Assembly: GCF_003697845.1 (NCBI RefSeq)
Contig: NZ_RDQE01000005.1
Coordinates: forward strand, 124,001 to 188,000
Direction: 5' to 3'
Length of the DNA stretch: 64,000 nt
From: Halobellus captivus
GTDB taxonomy: Archaea; Halobacteriota; Halobacteria; Halobacteriales; Haloferacaceae
The position numbers and the translations under genes were made by a program. Below, piece by piece: positions 1,085-20,022 of the stretch. The notes beneath the pieces are model-generated. The model did no database searches. It had not been told where the DNA came from and saw only the letters and a list, made by a program, of their open reading frames with translations. Within the stretch, counting starts at the first letter, position 1; each line of letters begins with the position of its first letter.

Positions 1085-2665
1085 CTACTCCGCGAAGATG
1101 ACGTCGTCGATTCGGAGGATCATCCGCGCCGCCTCGGTCGCGGAGTCGACCGCCTCGCGTTTCACCGCGGCGGGGTCGACGATCCCCTCCTCGAGCGGAT
1201 CGCCGACGCGAGCGGTCCGGCCGTCGGCGATGACGCCCGCCCGCCCGTCGCGGTCGTGAGTCGCCCGCAGGTCGACGAGCGTGTCGATCGGGTCCGCGCC
1301 GGCGTTCTCCGCGAGCGTTCGCGGAAGCGCGTCGACGGCGTCCGCGAACGCCTCGATCGCGAGCTGTTTGCGGCCCTCCACGGAGGCCGCCGCCCCGCGG
1401 AGGTGCGCGGCGATCGCGACCTCTGTCGCGCCCGCACCCGGAACGGTCCCGGCGTCGCGAGCGGCCACGACCGCGTCGACCGCGTCGTTCACGGCGCGCT
1501 CGAGCTCGTCGACGACGTGTTCGGTGGACCCATACACGAGGAGGGTCACCGCCCGGGAGGCGTCGCCGCCGCGGACGGAGACGAGGTCGTCGTCGTCGCC
1601 GTCGACCTCGACCGCGATCGACTCGGCGTGGCCGAGGTCGCTCGCCTCGACGTCCTCGAGGGTTCCGAGTCGCTTCGCGCCAGTCACACGGGCGACGTCG
1701 GTCGCGTCGGAGGACTTCACGCTCTCGAACGCGAGGATCCCGGCGTCGGCGAGGTAGCCGGCCACGCGGTCGTCGATCTTCTTCCGGCAGAAGAGGACGT
1801 CGACGCCCGCTTCCGAGAGGGCGTCCGCGTATCCGCGAAGCTCGGCGTCCTCCGCTTCGATGGCCGCGTTGAGTCCGTCGACGGAGGTGATCGAGTACTC
1901 CGCGTCGACGTCGCCCTGCCGAACCTCGAGTTTCGTCTCGAGGACCGTGACGGAGGCGTTCTCGACCTCGTGGGGCATCCCGTCGTGGACGGGCTCCTCC
2001 TCGATGACCACGCCGTCGACGAGTTCGGTCGCGGAGGAGCCGGCGCCGGTCCGCGGGTGGACGTGAACCGCGTCGCGGTCGACGTCGCCGTCGTCGGTCG
2101 TGACCCGACCGATCGCCTCGACGACGAGCGCCGCGAGGTCGGCGGCGGCGGCGTCGCCGGTTCCCTTGCCCGTCATCGACGACTCCGCGACCGACGCGAG
2201 GAGGTCGGCGGCGGGGTCGCTCCCGACCTCGACGTCGAGCAGCTGGCCGTCGATCGCTTCCCCGGCGAGGCGGACGGCCTCGGCGTACCCCTCGACGATC
2301 ACCGTCGGGTGGAGGTCGTCCTCGAGCATGCCCTCCGCCCGCGAGAGCAGCTCGCCGAGCAGCACGGCCGCCGTGGTGGTCCCGTCACCGACGGACTCCT
2401 CTTGAGACTCCGCGACCTCGACGATCATCTGGGCGGCGGGGTGGTCGATGTCCATCTCGTCAAGGATCGTCGCGCCGTCGTTCGTGACGACGACTGTACC
2501 CGTCGAGTCGACGAGCATCTTGTCCATCCCGCGAGGTCCGAGCGTCGTGCGGACGGCCTCGGCGACCGCCTTTCCGGCGGCGACGTTCGACTCCTGGGCC
2601 GCGCGGCCGCGCGTTCGTTCGCTGTCCTCGGAGAGTACGTACAGGGGTTGAGTACGGGATGCCAT
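1085..2665 (-). CDS. Thermosome (group II chaperonin) subunit
   Basis: A 526-residue subunit of the archaeal group II chaperonin, an ATP-driven cytosolic double-ring folding machine. Visible signatures are [13 protein letters not shown] and TNDGATIL near the N terminus, the ATPase motif [10 protein letters not shown], and the distal equatorial GAGATE segment. The start chosen gives [15 protein letters not shown], the usual thermosome N terminus, and lies about 30 nt below a TATA box, so the mRNA is probably leaderless. The protein ends in DDVIFAE with no Gly/Met-rich tail, unlike many thermosome subunits, so it may be one of several paralogues with its own role. The apical domain is strongly acidic. 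Confidence 0.95.
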
Positions 2666-2690
2666 ACGTTGCGGATACTCGGTCAGCGGT

Positions 2691-2700
2691 TCTATATATC
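2691..2700 (-). promoter_or_regulatory. TATA box of the thermosome gene
   Basis: Read on the minus strand, this is GATATATAGA, an isolated AT-rich 10-mer in GC-rich DNA. Its centre is about 30 nt upstream of the chosen ATG at 2665, which fits leaderless transcription. The divergent amidohydrolase gene starts at 2812. Confidence 0.65.
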
Positions 2701-2811
2701 CATATCGCTCTCGATCGGGTAGAATCGCCCGAAGGGAACGCCTCGGTCGACGAGCCGATTCCCGACATCGGACCGACAGGCACATGCGGCACGCGTGGGA
2801 TACTCACGCGA

Positions 2812-3642
2812 ATGCTCGGGTTGGAACACGACTTCCGGATCGTCGATACCCACGCCTCGCTGGACCCGGACGAGGCCTCGGTCGCAGCACACGGCCGGGA
2901 CATCACGCCCGAGCGTCTGGAACGCGAGATGCACCAGGCGGGGATCGTCCGGGCGGTCGCGAGCCCCGGCCGGCGCGCTCCCGGACGGAGCTACCTCCGC
3001 GCCAACAACGCGGTCGCGCGCCTCTCGGTCGACCGTCCGTTCGTCGCGTTCGCCCGACTCAACGGCCCCAGAGATCCGGGCGGCGGCCCGGTCTCCGCGA
3101 TCCGGAACCTCCGAGCCGAGCGCGACGACCATCACGCCCGCCCCGACGACGTCGAGCAGTACTCCTACGACGACCGGTTTCACGGGTTCACGCTCGTCCC
3201 GCCACACGACGGGGTGCCGAACGCGGACGTGCTCGAGCGGCTGGACGGGGCCGACCTCCCCGTGATCGTCCACGGCGGAAAGCGCTTCCCGCCCGACGCG
3301 GTCGAACGCGAGCTTCTCGGCTACGACTTCCCGGTCGTGCTCGCCAGCTTCGGGGGCTACCCGCTCGACACGGAGCTGATGAACCGGACGCTCGACCTCC
3401 TCGAGGAACACGATCGCCTCTACGTCGACACCAGCGCCGTGCGCTACCGCGAGATCCTCGAGCGCGGGGTGTTGGAACACCCCGACCGCGTGGTGTTCGG
3501 CTCCGGCGCGCCCCACGTCCACCCGAACGTCGGCGTGATGGAGGTGTTGACCCTCGACGTCTCCGAGGACCTGATGCGGCGCGTCTTCGCGAAGAACCCG
3601 GTCCGGCTCGTCCCCGCGCTCGCCGAGGGCGCGGACGCGTGA
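2812..3642 (+). CDS. Amidohydrolase-like TIM-barrel protein with eroded metal site
   Basis: A 276-residue protein with the layout of the amidohydrolase (Amidohydro_2-like) family: N-terminal FRIVDTHASL, a middle VIVHGG, and a C-terminal VVFGSGAPHVHPN followed by the FAKNPVRLV tail. In active relatives the N-terminal motif is DxHxH and the late motif is GSDxP. Here the second His is Ser (residue 16) and the Asp is Gly (residue 232), so ordinary two-metal hydrolysis is doubtful. The start at ATG 2812 is chosen because the sequence upstream reads as promoter of the divergent chaperonin gene. The substrate is unknown. Confidence 0.75.
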   Translation: MLGLEHDFRIVDTHASLDPDEASVAAHGRDITPERLEREMHQAGIVRAVASPGRRAPGRSYLRANNAVARLSVDRPFVAFARLNGPRDPGGGPVSAIRNLRAERDDHHARPDDVEQYSYDDRFHGFTLVPPHDGVPNADVLERLDGADLPVIVHGGKRFPPDAVERELLGYDFPVVLASFGGYPLDTELMNRTLDLLEEHDRLYVDTSAVRYREILERGVLEHPDRVVFGSGAPHVHPNVGVMEVLTLDVSEDLMRRVFAKNPVRLVPALAEGADA

Positions 3643-3682
3643 AGCGACGGCCACTTGTCGCGTCGCCGCCGATCCGGCGAAC

Positions 3683-4165
3683 ATGAGCGACGCCGACGCA
3701 GGCCCCGAGACGGAGCCGGATCTGAACGGATCACACGTGGAGGTCGTCCGCGCACGCGGTCACGAGAACGTCACCGCCGAGCACGCGAGCACCTTCGAGT
3801 TCACGACCGACGACTGGCTCACCCTCGCCGGCGACTGTATCCTCGGCGTCGACGCCGACCGGACGCCACGGGACTTCTCCCCGGAGTTCCGCGAGGCCTG
3901 TCGTGACCCGAACGCGACGATCACGGCGACGATCACGGTCGAGGGCGACGGGAAGAGGTACACTGAGACGGTCGTCGGCCGGGGCGATCCCGGACTGGCG
4001 CTCGTCGACGACCGGTCGATGGTGGCACGGACGAGCGAGTACACCGACGACGAGCGGACGGTCCTCGTCGACGCCGACGCGGCCGCCGCCGACCTCGACC
4101 GCGACCTCGTGGCCGCGCTCGCCGACAGCGGAGAGGTGGAGTTGCGGTTAGAAGTCCGACGATAG
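3683..4165 (+). CDS. DUF371 family protein
   Basis: A 160-residue soluble protein. The segment ARGHENVTAEHASTFEFTTD, followed by LTLAGDCILGVDAD, is the hallmark of the archaeal DUF371 family, whose biochemical function is not established. An acidic N-terminal extension of about 20 residues precedes the domain. It lies 40 bp after the amidohydrolase-like gene on the same strand, so co-transcription is possible. No membrane segment or signal peptide is visible. Confidence 0.85.
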   Translation: MSDADAGPETEPDLNGSHVEVVRARGHENVTAEHASTFEFTTDDWLTLAGDCILGVDADRTPRDFSPEFREACRDPNATITATITVEGDGKRYTETVVGRGDPGLALVDDRSMVARTSEYTDDERTVLVDADAAAADLDRDLVAALADSGEVELRLEVRR

Positions 4166-4270
4166 ACGGGGACGATAGGACGACTGGACGACGATCCGTT
4201 TGGTGTTGTGCTGTCGGCGAGACCCGGTGAGCGGACGCGGTCGCGTCCGCGAACCGAACGTGAGGGAGGC

Positions 4271-5339: not shown

Positions 5340-8300
5340 TCAGTCGTCGCCGGAGACCTGCTCGGCGGCGTCGCCGGCGGCCTCGGGCGCGGCGTCGGCG
5401 GGCGCGGGCGGCGCCTCGCGCACGTCGGTGCCGGTCCCCTCGGCGATCACGTCGGCGTACGCGTCGGGGAAGACGCGAACGAAGTCCGAGAGCGTGGTCT
5501 CCCAATCGTCGAGCAGCTCGGCGGCACGGTCGCTGTCGGTGTACGCGCGATGGTTCTCGACGAGCCGGCGGAGCATCCGTTCGTCGCTGGCGTCGAGCTC
5601 GCGCGAGAGCGACACCATCCCGCGGTTGAGCCGCTCCGCGAACCGGTCGTCGGGGTCGTACACGTACGCGACGCCGCCGGACATGCCGGCCGCGAAGTTG
5701 CGACCGGTGTCGCCGAGCACGGCGACGACGCCGCCGGTCATGTATTCACAGCCGTGGTCGCCGACGCCCTCGACGACCGCCCGGACCCCCGAGTTGCGGA
5801 CGCCGAACCGCTCTCCGGCGACGCCGTTGACGTACGTCTCGCCCGCGGTCGCACCGTACAGACAGACGTTGCCGGCGACGACGTTCTCGGCCGGATCGTA
5901 GCCCGCGTCCTCGGGCGTCGAGATCACGATCCGCCCGCCGGAGAGGCCCTTGCCGACGTAGTCGTTGGCCGCGCCAGAGAGCTCCATCGTGATCCCCCGT
6001 GCGAGGAACGCGCCGAAGCTCTGGCCCGCGTGGCCGTCGAACCGACAGGTGACGGTGTCGTCGGGGAGCCCCTCCCCGCCGTGTTCGGAGACGACCCGGT
6101 TCGAGAGGGTCGCGCCGACCGCGCGGTCGACGTTGTCGATGTCGCGAGTAAGCGCGACCGGCGTACCGTCCTCGATGGCGGGCGACGCCTCCTCGATGAG
6201 GTCCCAGTCGAGCAGCTTCTCGATGCCGGCGTGGGTCTGGGCACGCGTCTTGGTGCGGGAGTCGCCGGCGGGGTCGGCGATCACGGCCGAGAGGTCGAGG
6301 TGGCTCGCCTTCTCGTGGTCGGTCTCGCGCTGGACGAGGAGGTCGGGCCGGCCGATGAACTCCTCGAGGTCGGCGAATCCCAGTTCGGCCATGAGTTCAC
6401 GGAGCTCCTGAGCGATGAACGTCATGTAGTTGATCACGTGGTCGGGCTGGCCGGGGAAGCGCTGGCGGAGGTCCTCGCGCTGGGTGGCGACGCCGACCGG
6501 ACACGTGTTCTCGTGACACTGCCGGGCCATCACGCAGCCGGAGGTGACGAGCGAGGCGGTCCCGAAGACGTACTCCTCCGCGCCGAGCGCGGCGGCGACG
6601 GCCACGTCGCGACCGGTCTTCAACCCGCCGTCGGCGGCGACGCGGATGCGGTCGCGCAGGCCGGTCGCGCGTAGCATCTGGTTCGCCTCGGCGAGTCCGA
6701 GCTCCCAGGGGAGCCCCGCGTTCTTGATCGACGTCTTCGGCGACGCGCCCGTCCCGCCGGAGTGGCCCGAGATGTGGACCACGTCGGCGTTCGCCTTCGC
6801 GACGCCCGCCGCGATGGTCCCGATCCCCGCCTCCGAGACGAGCTTCACGTTGACGTCGGCCGAGGGGTTCGCGGCCTTCAGATCGAAGATGAGCTGTTTG
6901 AGGTCCTCGATCGAGTAGATGTCGTGTTGCGGGGGCGGCGAGATGAGTCCGACGCCGGGCGTGGAACACCGGACGTGCGCGATCATCTCGTTGACCTTCT
7001 CGCCGGGGAGGTGGCCGCCCTCGCCGGGCTTCGACCCCTGTGCCATCTTGATCTGGAGCTCATCCGCGCTCGCGAGGTACTCGGCGGTGACGCCGAACCG
7101 GCCGGAAGCGACCTGCTTCACGCTACACTCCTTCTCGGTGTCGAACCGCTCCGGCGGCTCGCCGCCCTCGCCGGTGTTGGATTTAGCCCCCAACCGGTTC
7201 ATCGCGATCGCGTTGTTCTCGTGGGCCTCCGGCGAGAGGCTCCCGAGGCTCATCGCGGCCGTCGAGAAGCGCTCGACGATCGACTCGACCGGCTCGACCT
7301 CCTCGACCGGGATCGGGTCCAGCTCGGAGTCGAACTCCAGGAGACCGCGCAGCGTCTGGAGCGTCTCGGACTGGTCGTTGACCAGCTCGGCGAACTCGCC
7401 GTACTGCTCGTAATCGCCGCCGCGCACCGCCTGCTGGAGCGTCCCGACCGTCTGGGGGTTCCAGCCGTGGTGGACGCCCGACGAGCGGTTCTCGTACTCG
7501 CCGACCGTCTCGAGTTCGGGATCGACGCCGAACGCCATGGCATGGCGCGTCCGGAGGTCGTCCTCGATCTGTTCGATCCCGATCCCCTCGGTGCGGATCT
7601 CGGTGCCCTCGAAGAACTCGCCGACGAGTTCGGAATCGAGACCGACCGCCTCGAAGATCTGTGCGCCCTGGTAGGACTCGACCGTCGAGATCCCCATCTT
7701 CGCCATCGTCTTCAGGAGGCCGTCCTCCAGCGCGCCCCGGTAGGCGGCCAGCGCCTCCGCCTCGTCCGCGCCGTCCGGGCCGGCGACCACGTCGGCGATG
7801 GAGGCGTACGCGAGGTACGGGTCGACCGCGTCCGCGCCGTAGCCGACCAGCGTGGCGAGATGATGGACCTCGTGGGGCTCGCCGGACTCGACGACGAGTC
7901 CCGCGCGGTTGCGGAGCCCGTTGCGTACGAGCTGGTGGTGGACCGCACCGGTGACGAGCAGGCTCGGGACGGCGAGCCGATCCGGACCGATCGCCCGGTC
8001 CGAAAGCACGACCACGTCCGCGCCCGCCTCGATCGCGTCGGACGCCTCACGGCGGATCCGGGTGACCGCGTCGGTGAGGGAGGTGTCACGGCGGTAGGTG
8101 GTGTCGACGGTCTCCGCGGAGAACCCCGCGTCGCCGTCGAGATCCTTCAACGCGGCCGTCTCGGCGTTCGACAGAACGGGGGAGTCGGCGACGATCTGCC
8201 GCGCGTGTTCGGGCGTCTCCGCGAGCAGGTTGCGCTGGTTGCCGATCCGCGACTCCAGGGAGGTGACGAGCTCTTCGCGGATGTAGTCGATCGGCGGGTT

Positions 8301-9980
8301 CGACACCTGCGCGAACAGCTGTTTGAAGTAGGTGAAAAGCGGCCGGTCGACGTCGGCGAGCACCGAAAGCGGGGTGTCGTCTCCCATCGACCCGACCGGG
8401 TCCTTGCCGGCCTCGGCCATCGGCTCCACGAGGTGGTTCAGCGAGTCCGTGGTGTAGCCGAAGGCGGCCTGATAGGCGCGGACCGTGCGGTTCTCGTCGG
8501 TCGGATCGGCGGTCGGCGTCGCCTCGTCGTCCTTCCGCCTCGAGGCGGCTTCGTCGACGAGGGCGTCGAGTTCGACCTGCTCCTCGCCGACCCACTCGCC
8601 GTACTTCTCGTCTGTGAGCTCGTCGAACACCTCGTCGTCGGGGACGATCCGTCCCTGCTCGGGGTCCGCGACGAAGATCTCGCCCGGTTGGAGCCGTCCG
8701 CGGCGCGTCACGTTCGCGGCGTCCGTCGGGAGCGCGCCAACCTCGCTGCCGACGACGAGCCGGTTCTCGGTCGTGACCTCGTACCGGCAGGGGCGGAGTC
8801 CGTTGCGGTCGAGCACGCCCGCGACGCGGTCGCCGTCGAAGCCGATGACGAGCGCGGGGCCGTCCCACGGCTCGACGAGCGAGGCATGGTAGTCGTAGAA
8901 ATCCGCGCGCTCCTCGGCCATGAGGTCGTCGTCGCGGAACGCCTCGGGAACGAGCATCCGCAGGACGTGCGGGAGGTCGCGGCCGGTCTGGAGGAGCAAC
9001 TCGACCGCGTTGTCGAGGCTGGCGGTGTCGGATTGGTTCGGGTCGTCGATAACCGGCCGGATCGTCTCGAGCTCCGCGCCGAACGCCGGGTGATCCAGGT
9101 CGTTCTCGCGGGCGCGCATCCAGTTGACGTTCCCGCGGATCGTGTTGAACTCGCCGTTGTGTACCACGTTGCGGTACGGGTGTGCGAGGTGCCACGCCCC
9201 GAGCGTGTTCGTCGAGAAGCGCGCGTGGACCAACGCGACGTGGCTCGCGAACCGCTCGTCCTCCAGGTCGGGGTAGTAGCCCGCGAGCTGTGAGCCCTTG
9301 AGAAGCCCTTTGTACACGACGCGCTGGCGGTCGAACGAGCAGACGTAGAACCGACCCGCGCCGTCGACGTCGCTCACGACGTTCTCGATCTCCCGGCGGG
9401 CCGCGTACAGCGCGCGGTCGAACCCGAGCAGTTCGGGATCGGCGTCGGGATCGGCGTCGGGATCGGTGAACCGCTCGGCGAGACCGGCCCCCTCGACGGG
9501 GGCGACGAACAGCTGGGAGACGTGCGGTTCCGACTCGAGCGCGGTCTCGCCGAGGTCGTCGTTGTCGGTCGGGACGGCCCGCCAGGCGAGCACTTCCAGG
9601 CCGTACACCGAGAGCACCTCGGCGATGGCGTCGTGGATCCCCGCGCGGACGCCCGGCTCCGGAGGCATGAAGACGGAGCCGACGGCGTACTCCTCGGGCA
9701 GGTCAGCGTCGACGACCGCCTCGAAGAACTCGTCGGGCCGCGCGACCATGATCCCGGCCCCGTCGCCCGTGTTCTCCTCCGCGCCGGTCGTCCCCCGGTG
9801 TTCGAGGTTCTCCAGAAGCTGAACCGCGTCGCGTACGGTGTCGTGTGCGGGCGTGCCGTCGAGGTCGATGACGCCGCCGATCCCGCAGTTCGAGCGGTCG
9901 TCCGTCGGGGAGGCGAGCCCGTCGTCGCAGTCGTCCCGGCTCGTCCCCGGGTCGGGGATGGTACTACGTGACTTGGTCAT
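5340..9980 (-). CDS. gltB: Glutamate synthase, large subunit
   Basis: A 1546-residue enzyme that makes glutamate from glutamine and 2-oxoglutarate in ammonium assimilation. Domain order: N-terminal class II glutamine amidotransferase with the nucleophile candidate Cys32 in NCGIGGVIDLDG; a central domain; the FMN domain (GSKPGEGGHLPGEKV, HISGHSGGTGASP); the 3Fe-4S cysteines in CVMARQCHENTCPVGVATQ; and a C-terminal GXGXG beta-helix domain (GKGLSGGRIVI, MTGGVVAVLGDTGRNFAAGMSGG). About 31 residues precede Cys32, consistent with a processed propeptide. A small subunit is not adjacent, so the electron donor may be ferredoxin; this is inference. A strong GGAGGTG ribosome site precedes ATG 9980. The C-terminal tail is Ala/Pro/Asp-rich. 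Confidence 0.97.
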   Translation of the reverse strand: MTKSRSTIPDPGTSRDDCDDGLASPTDDRSNCGIGGVIDLDGTPAHDTVRDAVQLLENLEHRGTTGAEENTGDGAGIMVARPDEFFEAVVDADLPEEYAVGSVFMPPEPGVRAGIHDAIAEVLSVYGLEVLAWRAVPTDNDDLGETALESEPHVSQLFVAPVEGAGLAERFTDPDADPDADPELLGFDRALYAARREIENVVSDVDGAGRFYVCSFDRQRVVYKGLLKGSQLAGYYPDLEDERFASHVALVHARFSTNTLGAWHLAHPYRNVVHNGEFNTIRGNVNWMRARENDLDHPAFGAELETIRPVIDDPNQSDTASLDNAVELLLQTGRDLPHVLRMLVPEAFRDDDLMAEERADFYDYHASLVEPWDGPALVIGFDGDRVAGVLDRNGLRPCRYEVTTENRLVVGSEVGALPTDAANVTRRGRLQPGEIFVADPEQGRIVPDDEVFDELTDEKYGEWVGEEQVELDALVDEAASRRKDDEATPTADPTDENRTVRAYQAAFGYTTDSLNHLVEPMAEAGKDPVGSMGDDTPLSVLADVDRPLFTYFKQLFAQVSNPPIDYIREELVTSLESRIGNQRNLLAETPEHARQIVADSPVLSNAETAALKDLDGDAGFSAETVDTTYRRDTSLTDAVTRIRREASDAIEAGADVVVLSDRAIGPDRLAVPSLLVTGAVHHQLVRNGLRNRAGLVVESGEPHEVHHLATLVGYGADAVDPYLAYASIADVVAGPDGADEAEALAAYRGALEDGLLKTMAKMGISTVESYQGAQIFEAVGLDSELVGEFFEGTEIRTEGIGIEQIEDDLRTRHAMAFGVDPELETVGEYENRSSGVHHGWNPQTVGTLQQAVRGGDYEQYGEFAELVNDQSETLQTLRGLLEFDSELDPIPVEEVEPVESIVERFSTAAMSLGSLSPEAHENNAIAMNRLGAKSNTGEGGEPPERFDTEKECSVKQVASGRFGVTAEYLASADELQIKMAQGSKPGEGGHLPGEKVNEMIAHVRCSTPGVGLISPPPQHDIYSIEDLKQLIFDLKAANPSADVNVKLVSEAGIGTIAAGVAKANADVVHISGHSGGTGASPKTSIKNAGLPWELGLAEANQMLRATGLRDRIRVAADGGLKTGRDVAVAAALGAEEYVFGTASLVTSGCVMARQCHENTCPVGVATQREDLRQRFPGQPDHVINYMTFIAQELRELMAELGFADLEEFIGRPDLLVQRETDHEKASHLDLSAVIADPAGDSRTKTRAQTHAGIEKLLDWDLIEEASPAIEDGTPVALTRDIDNVDRAVGATLSNRVVSEHGGEGLPDDTVTCRFDGHAGQSFGAFLARGITMELSGAANDYVGKGLSGGRIVISTPEDAGYDPAENVVAGNVCLYGATAGETYVNGVAGERFGVRNSGVRAVVEGVGDHGCEYMTGGVVAVLGDTGRNFAAGMSGGVAYVYDPDDRFAERLNRGMVSLSRELDASDERMLRRLVENHRAYTDSDRAAELLDDWETTLSDFVRVFPDAYADVIAEGTGTDVREAPPAPADAAPEAAGDAAEQVSGDD

Positions 9981-10479: not shown

Positions 10480-13400
10480 CTACGGTGTTTCCCGGCGGCC
10501 GGCGAGGACGCTCGCCGACGCGATGGCGAGGAGTGCGGTGATGACGCCGAATCCGGGAACGTCATAGGCAGTCGAGCGCAACGGGGCCTCCTCGAAGGTC
10601 GGCGGCCGTGCGGACCGATCGTCATCGGACGACCCGAGCGAATCCCCAGGAGCGTCGGATCCTCCGCTCGACGAGGTGTCATCGTGACCGGTCGCTGCCG
10701 CGGCCGTGCTGGGCGTGGATCCCCCTTCCAGAACCCCGGAACGTGAAACGTACTCGGCCTCCTCGGGGGCGTTCGTATCGGCAACCGGACGGGGACCGAT
10801 CTCCCGGCGATCGCGGATCGTACGCTCCTCGGCCGCTCGAGCGGCGGACGCCCGAGACGAAGCGGCGCGGGATTCTCCCACGTCGTTGGCCGCGGAGTCG
10901 GACGCGGAGCCCGGGCCCTCGGCATCGCCGTCGGATCCGATCTCGCCCTCGCCCCGATCAGTCGAAGCGTCCGCCTCGTTTTCCTCATCGAGATCCGGCC
11001 TTGAACCCGATTCCTCGTCGGAATCGGAGGAGGATTCATCGCCGACCGAGTCGGAATCACGTCCTGCGTTCTCAGCCGATCGATCGGCGTCTCCGTCGTT
11101 CTCACCGCTCGTACTGCCAGCGTCGTCCCCATCGCCTCCGATCGCTCCGTCACCGCCTACTGCGCCGCCCCCTCCACCACTACCGCCACTGCTACCGCTG
11201 CTACTTCCACCGACGCCACCGTTACTTTCACTACCGCTACTGCCACCGCTACCGCCGTCATCCGCACCCTCCGTGTCCGTGCCACTGGCTCCGTCGGCTC
11301 CGTCGGAATCGAGAGCGTCATCACCGGAGCTGGTCTCAGTGGTCGTCTCTACGGTCCCATCGAGGTTCCCGTCACTCTCATCGTCGATCGTCGTCTCTTC
11401 TGCCGTTTCGAGGCTTTCATTCTCGTCTTCTGTCGTGTCCCCAGTGGAACCGTCGTTGACGCTACCGCCGTCGTGACTGCTCCCGTCCGTGACGTCCGTC
11501 GTTTCGTTTTCGACCGTCGCCGAGTCGTTCGAGGATCCGGTCGAATCGCCGGTGTCGACGGTGTCGTCGATAGGGTCTCCTGTATCGGTGGTTTCGTTGG
11601 AGTCGTCAGTGGTTTCCCCTGAATCGCTTGTTCCGTCGGAGCCGGTCGCGTTCTGGACGTACGTGAACGGTTCGGAACCGGCGTGAGACGCGTTCGATCC
11701 GGCGGCGGCGCGGAGGCGTTCGTCGATCACGTCGAACGTGGCGGTGAGATCGGTTTCGGCGCTCGTACCGACCGTTTCGTCGAGCGTTTCGGTGGCGTTG
11801 CCGACGAGGAAGAGTCCCGTCTCGCGGGAGAGAACCGTCGTGCCGTTTGCCGTCGCCGCGGGGGCCGCGTCGGATCCGGTGGCCGACTCGTTCGACACCG
11901 TGAACTCGAGACCGGCCAGTCGGTCGAGATCGGCACCCGTCGAGAGGTCCGGATCGCAGACCGCGGTGTAGCCGGACAGGCCGGTGGCGTTGACCGCGTA
12001 GACGACCGTCTCGTCGTCGGTGACGTTCTCAGCGGGCGTGAGCGTTCCGTTCGCGATAGCGTCCGTGACCGTCTCGGGCGTGGAGAAGGCGTCAACGCCG
12101 TTCTCCGTGGTCGAATACACCGCGAGGTCGTTCATCGATCGATCTCGTAGCGTTGCGGTCGCGGTATCGGTCGACCCCCCGGGTTCCGCTGTCGCCGTGA
12201 TCGCGTACTCGCCAGCCGGGATCGTCCCGTCCGCCGTCGACGTCGTAACCGACTCGATCGTTCCCGGTCCGTCGAGCGTGAAGAGATCGGATTCGAGATC
12301 GGGATCGCCCGCCGCATAGGTATTGAATCGGAGTGTCGTCGATTCTCCACGGGGTGTCGTGACGGTCGCCGTAGCGATCGAATCGTTCGTAGTCGATTCA
12401 GTGATCGTAACTTTGGTTGAGTTGGAATCAGTTACTAATTCAAATTCAAGTAGATCTCCGACGACAGATGATTTTGAAATACTAATGAGATTTGAGTATT
12501 GATCAGCTCTTCCGATAATTTTGAATGATGATTGTTTATCAAATCCACCACCAATGAGAGAATAATTACCAGTTGAAAGCTGAGATGTATTGAAATGGAC
12601 CTGTGTAGAATTATTAGTTGTTGACTCTATTCCTTCAAGAACAGATTCTGTTTGAGTCGATTCACGATGTAATTCGACACGATTCTCTCCATCAATAGAT
12701 CCCTCGAAAGCTATGATTCCTCCAGCGTATATCTGTTGGCTGTGATTTAAAGAACTTTTATTGAATGTTCGCTTAGTATCAGATATCTCTTTTTCAGATT
12801 TATTGACTGAAATTAATGCAGTATTTGAGACACCATTTTGTACAAATTGTTGATTATAATCCGAATTCTGTAACAGCGGAAAAGATCCAAGAGAAACAGA
12901 GTCACCGACTTCTGAACCATCATCAACAAGACGCATAACAGCCGCATATCGATTACTTTGAGAGAAATGAACAGGATCGCCATCTTTATTTCTTAATTCA
13001 ATCTCAACATCTTGGTTATTTCCAGTGATTATTTGAGATGTTCCGAGGTATTCCTGAGTTAGGACAGATCCATCACTCAAGATGGGATGAATTGTGACAA
13101 TATATGGAGTCATACCACCGTGTTCATCATCTAGTTGAGTACTCGAGATAGTAATATTATCTTCAATTATCGCGTTAGTGGAAATATTGTCAAAGTTAAT
13201 AGATGCAAATAAAGAATCACCCGTATGAGTAGCAAGCGAGAATTTCGAAGCTGCTGTTGGGAGTTTGTCGCCAGTACTGTAATTTTCGCTGCTCAATTTA
13301 CTCTCAGGAACAAGATAGATCTTATGCGGTCCCGGGAATCCATTCGCTTCAAGATATCTAATAGTTATCTCATTATTTTGATTAATCGTATCACGTGAAA

Positions 13401-14127
13401 CAGATTTCATACCCGCGATACGAGTATCACCATCTTCAAAAGCGACAATAAGTGTACTATTCACGTTTGTCTCAACATCTTCGATTGTGGCAGAAGGGAT
13501 GGTGAATCGATCTCCATCGCTGGATCCAGTCGCCTGATCTCTAAATTGAAATGATCCTCCGGCAATGTTGAATTCTTTAGAAAATGTAGAGTCATCAGTA
13601 TTAGTGGATGAATTATCGAGATCCCCCGTACTACTAGTTACTTTGAAAGAATATTTTATACTTGATTTCTTTTCAGAATTATTTGTTTTGAGGCCATCAA
13701 TTACAACCTTATCAATCTGAATTGGATCTCCATTTCCAGTGTATTCAATAACCAAGTAGAGGCTTTCAGTACTATTTTCATAAGAGTATATTCCTTGACT
13801 GCGGAGATGACCATTTTGTATGGTCGTATTTCCAACATATGCTTCAGATGTGTTCACACCATATGTAGAAATGCTAGATATGTTGATATTTAATTGGACT
13901 TCATCAGTTCTGAAATCACTGTTATTTTGATCAATTTGTATATCGTGAATGGTGTGGGATGTATCGCCTGGGATAATATTTGTCGGGGTCCCTGTCTCAT
14001 TGATATATACCTCATCAGAAGTTTCTGCATTCACCGAAGAAGTACCGAAACTGATCGCGGCCACGCCGACGGTGGTAGTTAGAACGGCAACGATCACGGC
14101 GATCCGAAGCGAGTTCTCACGTGTCAT
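10480..14127 (-). CDS. Large PGF-CTERM surface glycoprotein, compositionally chimeric
   Basis: About 1215 residues. The N-terminal signal peptide (MTRENSLR then a hydrophobic run to SSVNA) suggests Sec export. The C terminus, YDVPGFGVITALLAIASASVLAGRRE, is a PGF-CTERM signal, which archaeosortase A recognises for lipid anchoring. Roughly thirty N-x-S/T sequons suggest heavy N-glycosylation. Residues about 27-570 are encoded by AT-rich DNA (about 12,415-14,045) with ordinary Asn/Ile/Ser codons, while residues 570-1215 have the GC-rich style of the genome. The latter includes a beta-rich surface-protein-like domain (PRGESTTLRFN...EYAITATAEPGG...) and a long Asp/Ser/Gly/Glu linker (about 870-1130). 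ATG 14127 is preferred over 14172 because it gives a compact signal peptide. The exact function is unknown. Confidence 0.88.
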   Translation of the reverse strand: MTRENSLRIAVIVAVLTTTVGVAAISFGTSSVNAETSDEVYINETGTPTNIIPGDTSHTIHDIQIDQNNSDFRTDEVQLNINISSISTYGVNTSEAYVGNTTIQNGHLRSQGIYSYENSTESLYLVIEYTGNGDPIQIDKVVIDGLKTNNSEKKSSIKYSFKVTSSTGDLDNSSTNTDDSTFSKEFNIAGGSFQFRDQATGSSDGDRFTIPSATIEDVETNVNSTLIVAFEDGDTRIAGMKSVSRDTINQNNEITIRYLEANGFPGPHKIYLVPESKLSSENYSTGDKLPTAASKFSLATHTGDSLFASINFDNISTNAIIEDNITISSTQLDDEHGGMTPYIVTIHPILSDGSVLTQEYLGTSQIITGNNQDVEIELRNKDGDPVHFSQSNRYAAVMRLVDDGSEVGDSVSLGSFPLLQNSDYNQQFVQNGVSNTALISVNKSEKEISDTKRTFNKSSLNHSQQIYAGGIIAFEGSIDGENRVELHRESTQTESVLEGIESTTNNSTQVHFNTSQLSTGNYSLIGGGFDKQSSFKIIGRADQYSNLISISKSSVVGDLLEFELVTDSNSTKVTITESTTNDSIATATVTTPRGESTTLRFNTYAAGDPDLESDLFTLDGPGTIESVTTSTADGTIPAGEYAITATAEPGGSTDTATATLRDRSMNDLAVYSTTENGVDAFSTPETVTDAIANGTLTPAENVTDDETVVYAVNATGLSGYTAVCDPDLSTGADLDRLAGLEFTVSNESATGSDAAPAATANGTTVLSRETGLFLVGNATETLDETVGTSAETDLTATFDVIDERLRAAAGSNASHAGSEPFTYVQNATGSDGTSDSGETTDDSNETTDTGDPIDDTVDTGDSTGSSNDSATVENETTDVTDGSSHDGGSVNDGSTGDTTEDENESLETAEETTIDDESDGNLDGTVETTTETSSGDDALDSDGADGASGTDTEGADDGGSGGSSGSESNGGVGGSSSGSSGGSGGGGGAVGGDGAIGGDGDDAGSTSGENDGDADRSAENAGRDSDSVGDESSSDSDEESGSRPDLDEENEADASTDRGEGEIGSDGDAEGPGSASDSAANDVGESRAASSRASAARAAEERTIRDRREIGPRPVADTNAPEEAEYVSRSGVLEGGSTPSTAAAATGHDDTSSSGGSDAPGDSLGSSDDDRSARPPTFEEAPLRSTAYDVPGFGVITALLAIASASVLAGRRETP

Positions 14128-14410
14128 GTATGTGCCCGCGGTGCCGATGCTGTCGCTAGCGCGGATGCTCACGCGGCGATCAGGCCGACGCTTGATTTCC
14201 GCGCGACCGCCAGCCGGTCACGCGCTGCGGGATATTCGTACCCAATCCGGTCGGTTATATATCAATTACGACACTGGAAGTTTCTATTCGGAGAAATTTC
14301 GGATACTGATGGCCGATACGCCCTGATCATGAGGTTGAATGACAGAAAAGACGTAGTTAGCTGTCGCATCGATGGATCGAACCGGCCACGAGGGGAGTCT
14401 CGTTCTCTAC
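14128..14410. other. Intergenic region between uppP-like and surface glycoprotein genes
   Basis: This holds no convincing gene. On the minus strand a TATATAA-like box near 14,257-14,268 could drive the glycoprotein gene with a leader of about 100 nt. The stretch 14,255-14,350 is AT-rich, like the N-terminal half of that gene. Confidence 0.4.
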
Positions 14411-15312: not shown

Positions 15313-16062
15313 CTACCGCCGGTCGTCATCCGACTCCCGGTTCGACTCCACCGCGTCCGAATCCTCCGGGAAGAGCGTCGGCTCCGGATCGGTCGATGAC
15401 GTCTCCCCGTCATCGGCGAGCAGGTCCGACTGCGTACCGTCCCGCATCTCGTCATCTTCGATCGAAACGTCGGTTTCGTCCGAGCCAGTCGGCTCGTCGT
15501 TCGCCTCCGGCGGGGCGGGCGGCTCCAGCGCACGGATCAGGAGTTCGACGGGACGGGTGTCGCGGAGTTCCGGCCAACTCCGTCGGTCGCGCAGTCCTGC
15601 GGCACCGACCACGTAGAGCACGAGCGCACCCGCGAGAAGGGTCCGCGAGACGGCGTCGCCGGCGACCGCGGCGAGGAAGGCGACCGATCCCGCACCCACT
15701 GCGAGGCCGCCGGCGACGCGCAGAGGCGTCTCGTGGACTCGTTTCACTGTGGTTCCGGCCGCGCTGGCGAGGATCGATCCTTCCATCGCGCCGACGAGAG
15801 CTCCGACGATCCAGTCGAGGATCCGGAGGAAGGGACCGACCGTCCACGTCTCGCGGAGGTCGATCACGATCACGTCCGGGTCGGGTTCGGCCGTGAGCCA
15901 CCGGTACAGCCACGAGGCGCGGACCGTGCTCGCGACGCGATCTCCCACGGCCCGGGCACGATCGAGGACGACCGAGCCCGAACCGACGCGCGAGAGCAGG
16001 CCCTCGTCGGCGGGATCGCCAGGGGTTCGCGCGACGTCCCCGTCCGCGTCACGAGTCGTCAT
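15313..16062 (-). CDS. Haloarchaeal membrane protein of unknown function
   Basis: 249 residues, not recognised. Residues 1-60 are hydrophilic. Then comes a conserved-looking stretch DPDVIVIDLRETWTVGPFLRILDWIVGALVGAMEG, two or three hydrophobic segments (ILDWIVGALVGAM, VAGGLAVGAGSVAFLAAVAG, TLLAGALVLYVVGAAGL), and a very acidic C-terminal tail of about 80 residues. It lies 70 bp downstream of the DUF4330-like gene on the same strand, so the two may be co-transcribed. Confidence 0.7.
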   Translation of the reverse strand: MTTRDADGDVARTPGDPADEGLLSRVGSGSVVLDRARAVGDRVASTVRASWLYRWLTAEPDPDVIVIDLRETWTVGPFLRILDWIVGALVGAMEGSILASAAGTTVKRVHETPLRVAGGLAVGAGSVAFLAAVAGDAVSRTLLAGALVLYVVGAAGLRDRRSWPELRDTRPVELLIRALEPPAPPEANDEPTGSDETDVSIEDDEMRDGTQSDLLADDGETSSTDPEPTLFPEDSDAVESNRESDDDRR

Positions 16063-16132
16063 CGGGTGAACCGATCGGGTGAAGCGTCAAACCGGTTGTG
16101 GTCGCGTGGGCTACCGACGACGGTCCTCGGAC

Positions 16133-17233
16133 TCATCCGCTCACGTTGACGACCGTCGCACGGACGGTGACGGTGCCGAGATCGATCGTCACGGTCTCGC
16201 CCTGCCGGAGCGGTTCACCCTTGAACCGCGGTCCGGAGACGGTCTCGCGCACCTGAAGTCGGGTCGTGAGGGTCACCTCACGGTCGACCGGGTGGTCGAC
16301 CACGTTCACCGACCCGTTGTCGCCGGTGGCGATGATGAGCGAGGGGCGGGTGTCGACGGCGGTCACACGTGCGACGGTGTCGCCGCCCGCCTCCTCGACC
16401 ATTCCCGGCTCGAGCGCGTCGGCCATGTCCTCGCGAACGTCGTCCATCCGGAGGGTAACCGTGCGAGTGGACGCCGAGCCCAGCTGGAGCTCGCCGCCGA
16501 CACGCTCGATCCGTCCGTTGATCGTGTAGTCGGCGGTCGACAATCGAACGTCCTGTCCACGTCGTACCGGGTTCCCGCCGAAGCGTTGATCCCCGCTCTG
16601 CCGGTGTGTCCGAAGCGTCGCGGCGACGAACACCCGGCGCCGGTCGGGGTCGTTGGTCGCGAACTGCGTCACGTTCTCGATCGTCGCGACAGTCCGACCC
16701 GCGAGTCGGACCTCATCGCCGGAGGAGACGTCCTCGGCGTCCGCGGTCGTGAGCGTGTCCCGGAGGACGACCGTCGTCTCCTCGCGTTCGAGCGCGTCGC
16801 CGTCGCCCACCGCGCGGATCCGCCCGTCCAGCGTGTAGCGGTCGGTGTTGAGCGAGAGGCTGCGACCGAGCCGCAGCGGTGCGCCGTCGTAGGCGATGGA
16901 GCCGTCGTTCTCGAGTTCGCCCTCGAGCTCGACACGGAGGGTAACGCCGATGTCGTTCCCGCGCGGGGTGAGATGGACGTCGGTGACGGTCATCGTGGAG
17001 ACGTCGTTCGGGCTGTAGGTGTCGCCCTCGTTTATCGCCTCGACGACGTACGCCGGCTGGGTTCCCACATCGAGAGTCGCGTAGGTGGAGTCGAGGTCGG
17101 GTTCGGGTTCGGGGTCGTCGGAGAACACGAGCGCGACGCCGGCGACGCCGACCGCGAGGACCAACAGCACGACGAGCGCATCGACGACGTTGACGACGCC
17201 GAAGAGGTCGCCGTCGTCGTCGATCAGTTCCAT
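16133..17233 (-). CDS. DUF4330-like membrane-anchored protein
   Basis: 366 residues. The start MELIDDDGDLFGVVNVVDALVVLLVLAVGVAGVALVF has the soluble I-D-x-x-G-x-x-F-G-x-x-N-x-x-D motif followed by one membrane helix, the pattern of the DUF4330 family. The remaining 310 residues are extracytoplasmic and beta-rich, with three similar segments (RLGRSLSLNTDRYTLDGRI, RRGQDVRLSTADYTINGRI, RQGETVTIDLGTVTVRATV), suggesting an internally repeated beta domain. No enzyme motif is visible. The gene diverges from the origin region and heads the small cluster 17233-15313. Confidence 0.75.
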   Translation of the reverse strand: MELIDDDGDLFGVVNVVDALVVLLVLAVGVAGVALVFSDDPEPEPDLDSTYATLDVGTQPAYVVEAINEGDTYSPNDVSTMTVTDVHLTPRGNDIGVTLRVELEGELENDGSIAYDGAPLRLGRSLSLNTDRYTLDGRIRAVGDGDALEREETTVVLRDTLTTADAEDVSSGDEVRLAGRTVATIENVTQFATNDPDRRRVFVAATLRTHRQSGDQRFGGNPVRRGQDVRLSTADYTINGRIERVGGELQLGSASTRTVTLRMDDVREDMADALEPGMVEEAGGDTVARVTAVDTRPSLIIATGDNGSVNVVDHPVDREVTLTTRLQVRETVSGPRFKGEPLRQGETVTIDLGTVTVRATVVNVSG

Positions 17234-17385: not shown

Positions 17386-17411
17386 ACACCCCTCGTTTCG
17401 TCTGTTCTTCG
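17386..17411 (-). other. Origin recognition box 1 (ORB)
   Basis: This 26-bp element contains CCCCTCGTTTCGTCTGTTC. On the minus strand its G-rich end reads ACGAAACGAGGGG, close to the archaeal mini-ORB bound by Orc1/Cdc6. It is identical over 26 bp to ORB 2 at 17451. Confidence 0.8.
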
Positions 17412-17450
17412 GAGTCAGTGGAGGGGAGAGCTGGGCGGGCTGGGCGAGGT

Positions 17451-17476
17451 ACACCCCTCGTTTCGTCTGTTCTTCG
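17451..17476 (-). other. Origin recognition box 2 (ORB)
   Basis: An exact 26-bp repeat of the element at 17386, in the same orientation and 65 bp further on. The G-string faces away from the orc1 gene. Confidence 0.8.
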
Positions 17477-17567
17477 AGGTCGTGTGAAGTCAACAGTCTC
17501 GAATTCGAGTTCGGATCGGGTCCAAGCTTCGAGACGCACGACCCGTTCACCTGTAGGAGGATGAGAC

Positions 17568-17592
17568 ACACCCCTCGTTTCGTCTGTTCTCG
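17568..17592 (-). other. Origin recognition box 3 (ORB)
   Basis: It shares 23 bp with ORBs 1 and 2 and is the exact 25-bp reverse complement of ORB 5 at 19040. It is followed by an AT-rich stretch (17,637-17,702) that could serve as the duplex unwinding element before orc1. Confidence 0.8.
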
Positions 17593-17636
17593 TCAGCCCT
17601 CCTCCACCCATCTTTCGATTTTAGGGGGAGGTCGAG

Positions 17637-17698
17637 ACGATAACGAATCAGAGAAAATAGATGAAACAAATAAAACAGACGAATGCACAATTATATAT
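17637..17698 (+). promoter_or_regulatory. AT-rich probable unwinding element and orc1 promoter with a half-ORB
   Basis: This AT-rich run sits between ORB 3 and orc1 in GC-rich DNA. It carries ACAGACGAA at 17675-17683, nine bases identical to the downstream-orientation ORB but without the G-string, and the TATA box TTATATAT at 17691-17698, about 30 nt before the ATG at 17727. Binding of Orc1 to the half-site could feed back on its own promoter. That is inference. Confidence 0.6.
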
Positions 17699-17726
17699 GT
17701 GGATGGCTCGTTCGGAGAGTCGGATA

Positions 17727-18926
17727 ATGACCGAAGATCTCTTTTCGGATATCACGGATACTCTCTTCGAGAACAAAACCATTCTCTCGGAGGAGTACCA
17801 GCCGGATGAGATCGTCGAACGCGAGGACGAGATCGATTCCTTCCGATCCGCACTTAAGGACGTCCTGTTCGGACGAAACCCTTCGAACGTATTCATTTAT
17901 GGAAAAACCGGGGTCGGAAAGACCGCCGTTACGGAGTACATCATGAACGCCCTCAAAGCTGAAGTGAAGCGGCGAGACGATGCGGACGAACTTCACGTCT
18001 ACTTCCGAAACTGCAACGATGACACCGTGTATCGGACGGTTCGAGCCCTGATCAACAACATCCGTGGCGACGATCGTGCGCCGTTTCCAGAGACCGGCCA
18101 TTCGACGGCACACGCACTGGAGACGCTCTACGAGGAGATGGATACGAACGGTGGGACGTATCTGTTCGTCCTCGACGAGATAGATCACCTCTCGGATCCG
18201 AACACCCTCCTCTATGAACTTCCACGAGCACGCGCGAACGATCATCTGATCGACTCGCGAGTGGGCGTCATCGGGATCAGCAACAACTACGCGTTTCGTT
18301 CCTCGCTGAGTCCGAAGGTCAAGGACACGCTGATGGAAAAGGAGATAGCGTTTTCGCCGTACGACGCCGACGAGCTTCGGTCGATTCTCACGACACGAGC
18401 CGAGAAGGCACTAGTCGAGGACGCCTGGGACGATTCGGCGATCAAACTCGCCGCGGCCAACGCAGCAAAGGACACCGGAAGCGCACGGCAGGCCATCGAT
18501 CTGCTCCGAGAAGGCGGCGACGTCGCCGAGGAGAACGGTGCCACCGAGATCACGGACGAACACATCGAGGTCGCGGTCGATCGCGTCCAACGCGGTCGCG
18601 TCGAGAACAAACTGCGTGATCAGACCATGCACGGCCAGTTGATCCTCGAAGCGCTCGCGAAACTCGAGGTCGAGGGATCGACTCCCGCAAAATCGAAGGA
18701 GATACAGCAGGTATACGTCCGCGTGGCCGAGGGAAGGCGTCAAGATCCTCTCACCACGCTCAAAAGCATCCAGAACCATCTTGCCGACCTCACGATGCTC
18801 GGGTTCCTCGAACGAACCGAGCACAACGAAGGTCGCGCGGGCGGTGCACACTACCAGTACGAGCTTGCGCTCGATCCTACCATCGTTCTCGAAACGCGAG
18901 ATGCGATCGAAGCCGAGTCGACGTGA
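17727..18926 (+). CDS. orc1: Orc1/Cdc6 replication initiator
   Basis: A 399-residue initiator. It has an AAA+ ATPase domain with Walker A YGKTGVGKTA near residue 72, Walker B LFVLDEIDHL near residue 152, sensor 1 IGISNN, and sensor 2 with GSARQAIDLLR. The C-terminal winged helix (QQVYVRVAEGR...NHLADLTMLGFLE) contacts ORB DNA. ATG 17727 is chosen over upstream ATGs (17661, 17703) because the TATA box at 17691-17698 would make transcription start just before it. The gene is flanked by three ORBs upstream and two inverted ORBs downstream, so this is very likely the initiator of the origin it sits in. Its GC content is slightly lower than its neighbours. Confidence 0.96.
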   Translation: MTEDLFSDITDTLFENKTILSEEYQPDEIVEREDEIDSFRSALKDVLFGRNPSNVFIYGKTGVGKTAVTEYIMNALKAEVKRRDDADELHVYFRNCNDDTVYRTVRALINNIRGDDRAPFPETGHSTAHALETLYEEMDTNGGTYLFVLDEIDHLSDPNTLLYELPRARANDHLIDSRVGVIGISNNYAFRSSLSPKVKDTLMEKEIAFSPYDADELRSILTTRAEKALVEDAWDDSAIKLAAANAAKDTGSARQAIDLLREGGDVAEENGATEITDEHIEVAVDRVQRGRVENKLRDQTMHGQLILEALAKLEVEGSTPAKSKEIQQVYVRVAEGRRQDPLTTLKSIQNHLADLTMLGFLERTEHNEGRAGGAHYQYELALDPTIVLETRDAIEAEST

Positions 18927-18945
18927 CCCCCCTCTTCGCTGACGC

Positions 18946-18967
18946 AGAACAGACGAAACGAGGGGTG
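18946..18967 (+). other. Origin recognition box 4 (ORB), inverted relative to 1-3
   Basis: AGAACAGACGAAACGAGGGG, 20 nt after the orc1 stop, reads on the plus strand and so is inverted relative to ORBs 1-3. Its 22-bp core is the reverse complement of ORBs 1-3. Confidence 0.75.
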
Positions 18968-19039
18968 CGTTCAGTGAAGTACCGAGGCCATCGGCCGTGG
19001 CGATGTGCAGGGAAACGACCGAAGAGGACTCAACACGAA

Positions 19040-19064
19040 CGAGAACAGACGAAACGAGGGGTGT
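19040..19064 (+). other. Origin recognition box 5 (ORB), inverted relative to 1-3
   Basis: The exact 25-bp reverse complement of ORB 3, in the 310-bp gap between orc1 and the aglF-like gene. The remainder of the gap has no gene. The promoter of the next gene lies at its right end (GTATTTATCG near 19,205). Confidence 0.8.
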
Positions 19065-19236: not shown

Positions 19237-20022
19237 ATGCAAGCAGTCGTGCTCGCCGCCGGCGAAGGGACGCGGCTTCGACCTCTCACGGAGGAGAAGC
19301 CGAAGGGGATGGTCGAGGTCGCCGGCAAGCCCATCCTGACGCACTGTTTCGAACAGCTGGCTGATCTCGGTGCCGACGAGCTGTACGTCGTCGTGGGGTA
19401 CCGCAAGGAGGCGATCATCGAGTACTACGGCGACGAGTTCGAGGGCGTCCCGATCACGTACTCACACCAGCGCGAACAGCTCGGCCTCGCCCACGCGCTG
19501 CTCACGGTCGAAGAGCACATCGACGACGACTTCATGTTGATGCTCGGCGACAACGTGTTCCGTGCGAACCTCGCGGACGTCGTCAACCGCCAGCGGGAGA
19601 CGCGTGCCGACGCTGCATTCCTCGTCGAGGAAGTGCCCTACGAGGAGGCGAGCCGATACGGGGTGTGCGACACGAACCAGTACGGCGAGATCGTCGAGGT
19701 CGTCGAGAAGCCCGAGGACCCGCCGAGCAACCTCGTGATGACCGGCTTCTACACGTTCACGCCCGCGATCTTTCACGCGTGTCACCTCGTTCAGCCCTCC
19801 AACCGCGGCGAGTTCGAGATCTCCGACGCCGTCGACCTCCTTCTCGCGTCCGGCCGGACCATCGACGCGATCCGCATGGACGGCTGGCGAACCGACATCG
19901 GCTACCCCGAAGACCGGGAGAAGGCCGAGGAACGGCTGATCGAGGAGCGCGGAGAGGTGGTCGACGGGCCCGGCGAGACGGAAGACGAGGACGCCGAGAC
20001 CACGGCATCCGAGGAGTCGTGA
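19237..20022 (+). CDS. aglF: Sugar-1-phosphate nucleotidyltransferase, AglF-like (probable UTP-glucose-1-phosphate uridylyltransferase)
   Basis: 261 residues. The N terminus MQAVVLAAGEGTRLRPLTEEKPKGM is the nucleotide-binding signature of this transferase family, and LMLGDNVF carries the metal-binding Asp. The body resembles Haloferax AglF, which makes UDP-sugar for S-layer N-glycosylation; this assignment is from remembered similarity. The last 25 residues are an acidic halophilic tail. A TATA-like GTATTTATC lies about 30 nt upstream, so transcription is probably leaderless. It is not part of a visible agl cluster, so a general role in UDP-glucose supply is also possible. Confidence 0.85.
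   Translation: MQAVVLAAGEGTRLRPLTEEKPKGMVEVAGKPILTHCFEQLADLGADELYVVVGYRKEAIIEYYGDEFEGVPITYSHQREQLGLAHALLTVEEHIDDDFMLMLGDNVFRANLADVVNRQRETRADAAFLVEEVPYEEASRYGVCDTNQYGEIVEVVEKPEDPPSNLVMTGFYTFTPAIFHACHLVQPSNRGEFEISDAVDLLLASGRTIDAIRMDGWRTDIGYPEDREKAEERLIEERGEVVDGPGETEDEDAETTASEES

Follow-up and report, generated by a model that had tools for sequence, protein, structure and literature searches.

An orc1/cdc6 gene inside an oppositely oriented ORB array in Halobellus captivus, a putative secondary replicator-initiator module

In haloarchaea, origin recognition boxes (ORBs) have been described in both flanks of several orc genes, including cdc6E of Haloarcula hispanica and Hlac_1078 (Wu et al. 2012, PMC3528665). 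At H. hispanica oriC2, 11 ORBs are located downstream of cdc6E (Wu et al. 2014, PMC3936714). This downstream cluster has no origin (ARS) activity on its own, it reduces the copy number of oriC2 plasmids while the upstream part replicates better without it, and it cannot be deleted unless oriC2 is removed as well (PMC3936714). Two downstream ORBs, the number also present at the locus reported here, had an intermediate effect (PMC3936714). Wu et al. (2014, PMC3936714) proposed titration of Cdc6E by the cluster and called the layout widely used. Haloarchaeal orc genes with boxes in both flanks are therefore already known, and the 64-kb stretch of Halobellus captivus DNA analysed here (the window) adds a well-conserved example. 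An earlier note on this DNA had stated that many origins carry boxes on the upstream side only, implying an unusual layout. The downstream boxes are real, but the layout is less unusual than implied, because both-sided boxes have been documented (PMC3528665) and a downstream cluster has been functionally tested (PMC3936714).

The box array and the enclosed initiator gene

A pattern search of the window retrieved five perfect copies of CCCCTCGTTTCGTCTGTTC, each 19 bp long. Three of them lie upstream of the orc gene on the plus strand (17389..17407, 17454..17472 and, innermost, 17571..17589), and two lie downstream on the minus strand (18947..18965, 20 bp past the orc stop codon, and 19043..19061). 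Five near-identical boxes at these places, three pointing one way and two the other, with upstream spacings of 65 and 117 bp, had been noted before, and all of this was confirmed, the copies being exact. The C/G-strings of all five boxes face outward from the gene on both flanks, a polarity that is kept in orthologues. The G-rich tail, previously compared to a mini-ORB, is instead the 'G-string' of halophile ORBs, and the repetition of G-string-bearing ORBs in the intergenic regions flanking an orc gene is a hallmark by which an origin is recognized. When up to three mismatches were allowed, the chance expectation for the box was 0.04 (mean of shuffles), and none of 100 shuffles reached five copies. 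Outside these five, the 3.59-Mb draft genome contains no copy with fewer than three mismatches and hence no second cluster of this box. A literature search for the box sequence retrieved nothing.

As had been proposed, the boxes enclose an Orc1/Cdc6 initiator gene (17727..18926, plus strand), which was identified by profile and domain matches and by alignment of orthologues. Its 399-aa product scores 410 bits against the Orc1/Cdc6 profile TIGR02928 (cut-off 181) and contains the AAA domain, the Cdc6 lid (Cdc6_lid) and the C-terminal winged-helix domain (Cdc6_C), such that the gene qualifies as intact (AAA+ and winged-helix domains, more than 300 aa). Among solved structures, the closest relative is that of Cdc6 homologue 1 (chain 2qby_A, E=1.6e-56, nearly full length). 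Although the open reading frame reaches an upstream ATG at 17661, the start codon is likely the ATG at 17727, because orthologues align from residue 1 there and a TATA box (17692..17698, plus strand), predicted from the sequence and aligned with TATA-like sequences in orthologues, is located about 30 bp upstream. The longer reading frame would take in this TATA box.

The genome encodes several further Orc proteins. The enclosed gene is not of the oriC1 family, the oriC1-type Orc of this genome being encoded separately on contig C37 (33% identical). Another orc gene, on contig C4, is accompanied by a different box, ACCCCGTACCGAGTG, which is present in both flanks with the same polarity and also as an inverted copy shortly upstream of the gene's own TATA box.

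Conservation of the array and movement of the module

The nearest orthologues of the Orc protein (93-95% identity) are found in Halorubrum cibi, H. rubrum, H. alkaliphilum and H. halodurans, followed at 72-81% identity by proteins from further Halorubrum species, Halohasta, Haloquadratum, Halobellus and Natronocalculus. Outside Halorubrum and two further genera, none of 293 genomes sampled across the order gave a match above 63% identity. Within 800 bp of the gene, 98 boxes were counted at 20 orthologous loci from five genera; these loci are related by descent and the boxes are not independent events. The plus orientation was found for 53 of 54 upstream boxes and the minus orientation for 42 of 44 downstream boxes (95/98 overall), and none of the 98 lies inside the orc gene. 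The main exception is Natronocalculus with its mixed downstream orientation. The consensus over the 20 loci is ACACCCCTC(G/A)TTTCGTCTGTTCT, in which 17 of 19 positions are invariant or nearly so and CCCC/GGGG is invariant in all 98 boxes. Each side carries one to four boxes, spaced 38-354 bp apart (many near 55-65 bp), and the first downstream box follows the stop codon by 18-33 bp in most orthologues. At one locus, downstream boxes are situated at about 820-870 bp, just beyond the count limit, and are also in minus orientation. The constant polarity despite changing number and spacing indicates that boxes are gained and lost with their orientation retained and argues that they are selected, putative initiator-binding sites. 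A related Orc family (about 60% identity) uses a different string (GAGAGTAC...) with mostly the same polarity. Downstream boxes appeared slightly nearer to the consensus than upstream boxes (uncorrected P 0.04 and 0.02), a difference too weak for a claim of higher affinity. Together, the orthologues provide a compact natural series of putative origins, strongly conserved, whose members differ in box number and spacing but agree in polarity.

In the window, the neighbours of the module are genes for a DUF4330 protein (16133-17233, minus strand) and an AglF-like sugar nucleotidyltransferase (19237-20022, plus strand), both assigned by profile or domain matches. The DUF4330 gene stays beside orc in H. 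cibi and H. rubrum, and most other orthologues have different neighbours; the module of orc and boxes has therefore moved. Four orthologues reside on contigs of 2.6-3.6 Mb, and in these four the module is thus chromosomal.

Two Halorubrum loci deserve separate description. In Halorubrum aquaticum, an orc gene of another family (3001-4176 of the locus, 59% identical) sits beside the DUF4330 gene, in the place occupied by the window's own orc. Adjoining it (both within 1835-4176) is a truncated orc of the window type, comprising residues 215-399 at 95% identity with one internal TGA, which has kept two exact downstream boxes (1835, 1930) and has no upstream boxes. This arrangement looks like an in-place origin replacement. 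One Halorubrum chromosome carries two orc genes 8 kb apart (7250-8437 and 15524-16699 of the extracted locus) with different box types, each boxed on both sides. One of them, at 1,077,250, is the orthologue of the window's orc (80% identity) and has three boxes on either side; the other, at 1,085,524 (58% identical), has boxes of its own.

An AT-rich tract and phased half-boxes before the orc promoter

A candidate duplex-unwinding element is located between the innermost upstream box and the TATA box: at 17639..17700, 60-mers reach 73% AT in a window of 32% AT, a value matched by only 0.17% of the window's 60-mers. It is the sole strongly AT-rich stretch near the gene and corresponds to the AT-rich element that lies beside the ORBs in haloarchaeal origins. 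The remaining equally AT-rich 60-mers are all found at 12.7-13.9 kb. That unusually AT-rich segment (12741-13946) belongs to a long open reading frame (10480-14172, minus strand) that resembles a secreted or surface protein and has low-complexity sequence at its end. The downstream flank of orc is 42% AT and has no AT-rich tract.

The AT-rich tract contains an element that the earlier note had not described, namely degenerate, inverted half-ORBs without G-string (17655..17684, minus strand), phased in multiples of 9 bp, with cores at 17656-17666 (two mismatches) and 17674-17684 (one mismatch). This array, whose unit CAGACGAAA is the box core without the G-string, runs opposite to the upstream boxes and immediately precedes the orc promoter. 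When AAACAGACGAA, which is likewise the ORB core minus the G-string and is oriented as the downstream boxes, was used for searching, matches in the window started at 17655 (two mismatches) and 17673 (exact). With up to two mismatches it occurs one to five times per locus on the plus strand in 20 of 20 orthologues, with a strong strand bias (50 plus versus 1 minus). In the orthologues examined, the gene-proximal half-box precedes the start codon by about 55 bp (-49 to -61), and almost every other copy is an exact multiple of 9 bp away from it. Mean autocorrelation at lag 9 was 0.153, compared with 0.023 (sd 0.071) for 1315 upstream regions of one Halorubrum chromosome, a crude control as these regions include coding sequence; for the Orc family of about 60% identity the value was 0.102.

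Upstream full boxes all point one way, inverted full boxes occur only beyond the gene, and the AT-rich tract holds the degenerate inverted half-boxes. Since the upstream full ORBs share one direction, the usual inverted pair of full ORBs around the AT-rich tract appears to be missing, a point against the origin reading. The half-box array may be a candidate unwinding or loading site, or else an autoregulatory operator. We tentatively suggest, as an idea that is rather less probable than not, that haloarchaeal orc promoters carry 9-bp-phased, strand-specific ORB cores without G-string at about -55, inverted with respect to the upstream boxes, and that these could constitute a distinct origin element, a track for initiator oligomers that would open the duplex and couple firing to orc transcription. 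In function, such a track would be akin to the repeats of bacterial DUEs. In the Orc family of about 60% identity, we also asked whether the core base of the ORBs changes together with the promoter half-boxes. Several loci whose ORBs are of the G type had half-boxes of the C or A type, and the comparison thus does not amount to proof that the cognate initiator reads the array. In a limited reading of the haloarchaeal origin literature, we found no description of a phased half-box array. The array is a concrete candidate for the place at which a haloarchaeal Orc1 unwinds DNA or shuts down its own expression.

A proposed origin with downstream titration and feedback

We read the layout, conservation and polarity of the boxes, the intact initiator gene, the AT-rich tract and the half-boxes phased at 9 bp as a secondary chromosomal replicator-initiator module with an upstream origin, downstream titrating boxes and feedback on orc, and assign a probability of about 0.75 to this reading. 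The window and 20 orthologous loci support, at the level of sequence, the earlier proposal that this is an origin linked to Orc1, whose gene is enclosed by boxes of convergent orientation. By analogy with the protein family and with H. hispanica, Orc1 from the enclosed gene would bind the ORBs around that gene. Duplex opening and MCM loading would take place at an origin made up of the three upstream boxes together with the AT-rich tract (17639-17700) and the half-boxes; it counts in favour of the upstream flank that the AT-rich tract is found on the promoter side only. The two downstream boxes of opposite polarity would sequester surplus Orc1 and make the origin fire less often, as proposed for the H. 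hispanica oriC2 cluster. Orc1 bound next to the TATA box would probably feed back on orc transcription, and the promoter half-boxes may aid opening or repress orc. We think that the same titration mechanism operates here as at H. hispanica oriC2, although strong titration may require more than two downstream boxes. The locus makes the oriC2 titration model testable with just two downstream boxes.

GC skew weighs neither way. It has no extremum at the orthologue over the 2.34 Mb analysed of a 2.74-Mb Halorubrum chromosome, and there is only a mild change in slope on the window's own 279-kb draft contig. No Rfam family matched. A hairpin that CCCCCTC at the orc stop could form with the first downstream box was dropped as a candidate because it is absent from most orthologues.

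It is conceivable, if improbable, that the downstream boxes belong to the origin itself and that Orc1 bound on both sides loops the region into one large bipartite origin. A polarity kept in 95 of 98 boxes is what would be expected of oriented assemblies facing each other, and most orthologues have their first downstream box shortly after the stop codon. Across all orthologues, on the other hand, the distance between the gene and this box ranges from 18 bp up to about 800 bp, no AT-rich tract is present on the downstream side, and the replication and ARS behaviour of the two H. hispanica oriC2 parts described above (PMC3936714) also speaks against such an origin. We regard it as similarly unlikely that the boxes mainly regulate orc transcription from the promoter side while the origin is dormant or lost. 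Dormant origins do exist in haloarchaea (PMC4595724) and the half-boxes of all 20 orthologues abut BRE/TATA with little variation in their distance to the start, but three full boxes over 200 bp plus the downstream boxes are more than an operator needs, and retention of the box sequence in five genera in spite of spacing turnover argues for continued use. That the repeats are incidental or a feature of a mobile element would fit the differing flanking genes of most orthologues, a sign that the module has moved; this explanation is already contradicted by the conservation of box sequence and polarity in five genera and by the restriction of the boxes to one gene within the genome, and we give it practically no credence.

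Among known systems, the closest counterparts of the proposed replicator-initiator module include H. hispanica oriC2-cdc6E/oriC2D, which likewise has G-string ORBs in both intergenic flanks of one main-chromosome orc/cdc6 gene. In both cases ORBs lie directly downstream of orc, 11 within 722 bp in oriC2D and two in the window. The origin associated with Hlac_1078 of Halorubrum lacusprofundi also has ORBs on both flanks (PMC3528665). The conserved haloarchaeal oriC1 shares with the window G-string ORBs beside orc and an AT-rich tract, but there the tract is surrounded by an inverted pair of full ORBs (PMC3936714), whereas the window has only half-boxes at this place. As at E. coli datA and the dnaA promoter boxes, an analogy already drawn in PMC3936714, the extra initiator sites are thought to titrate or autoregulate; the E. 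coli initiator is unrelated, and the extra sites in the window adjoin the initiator gene itself.
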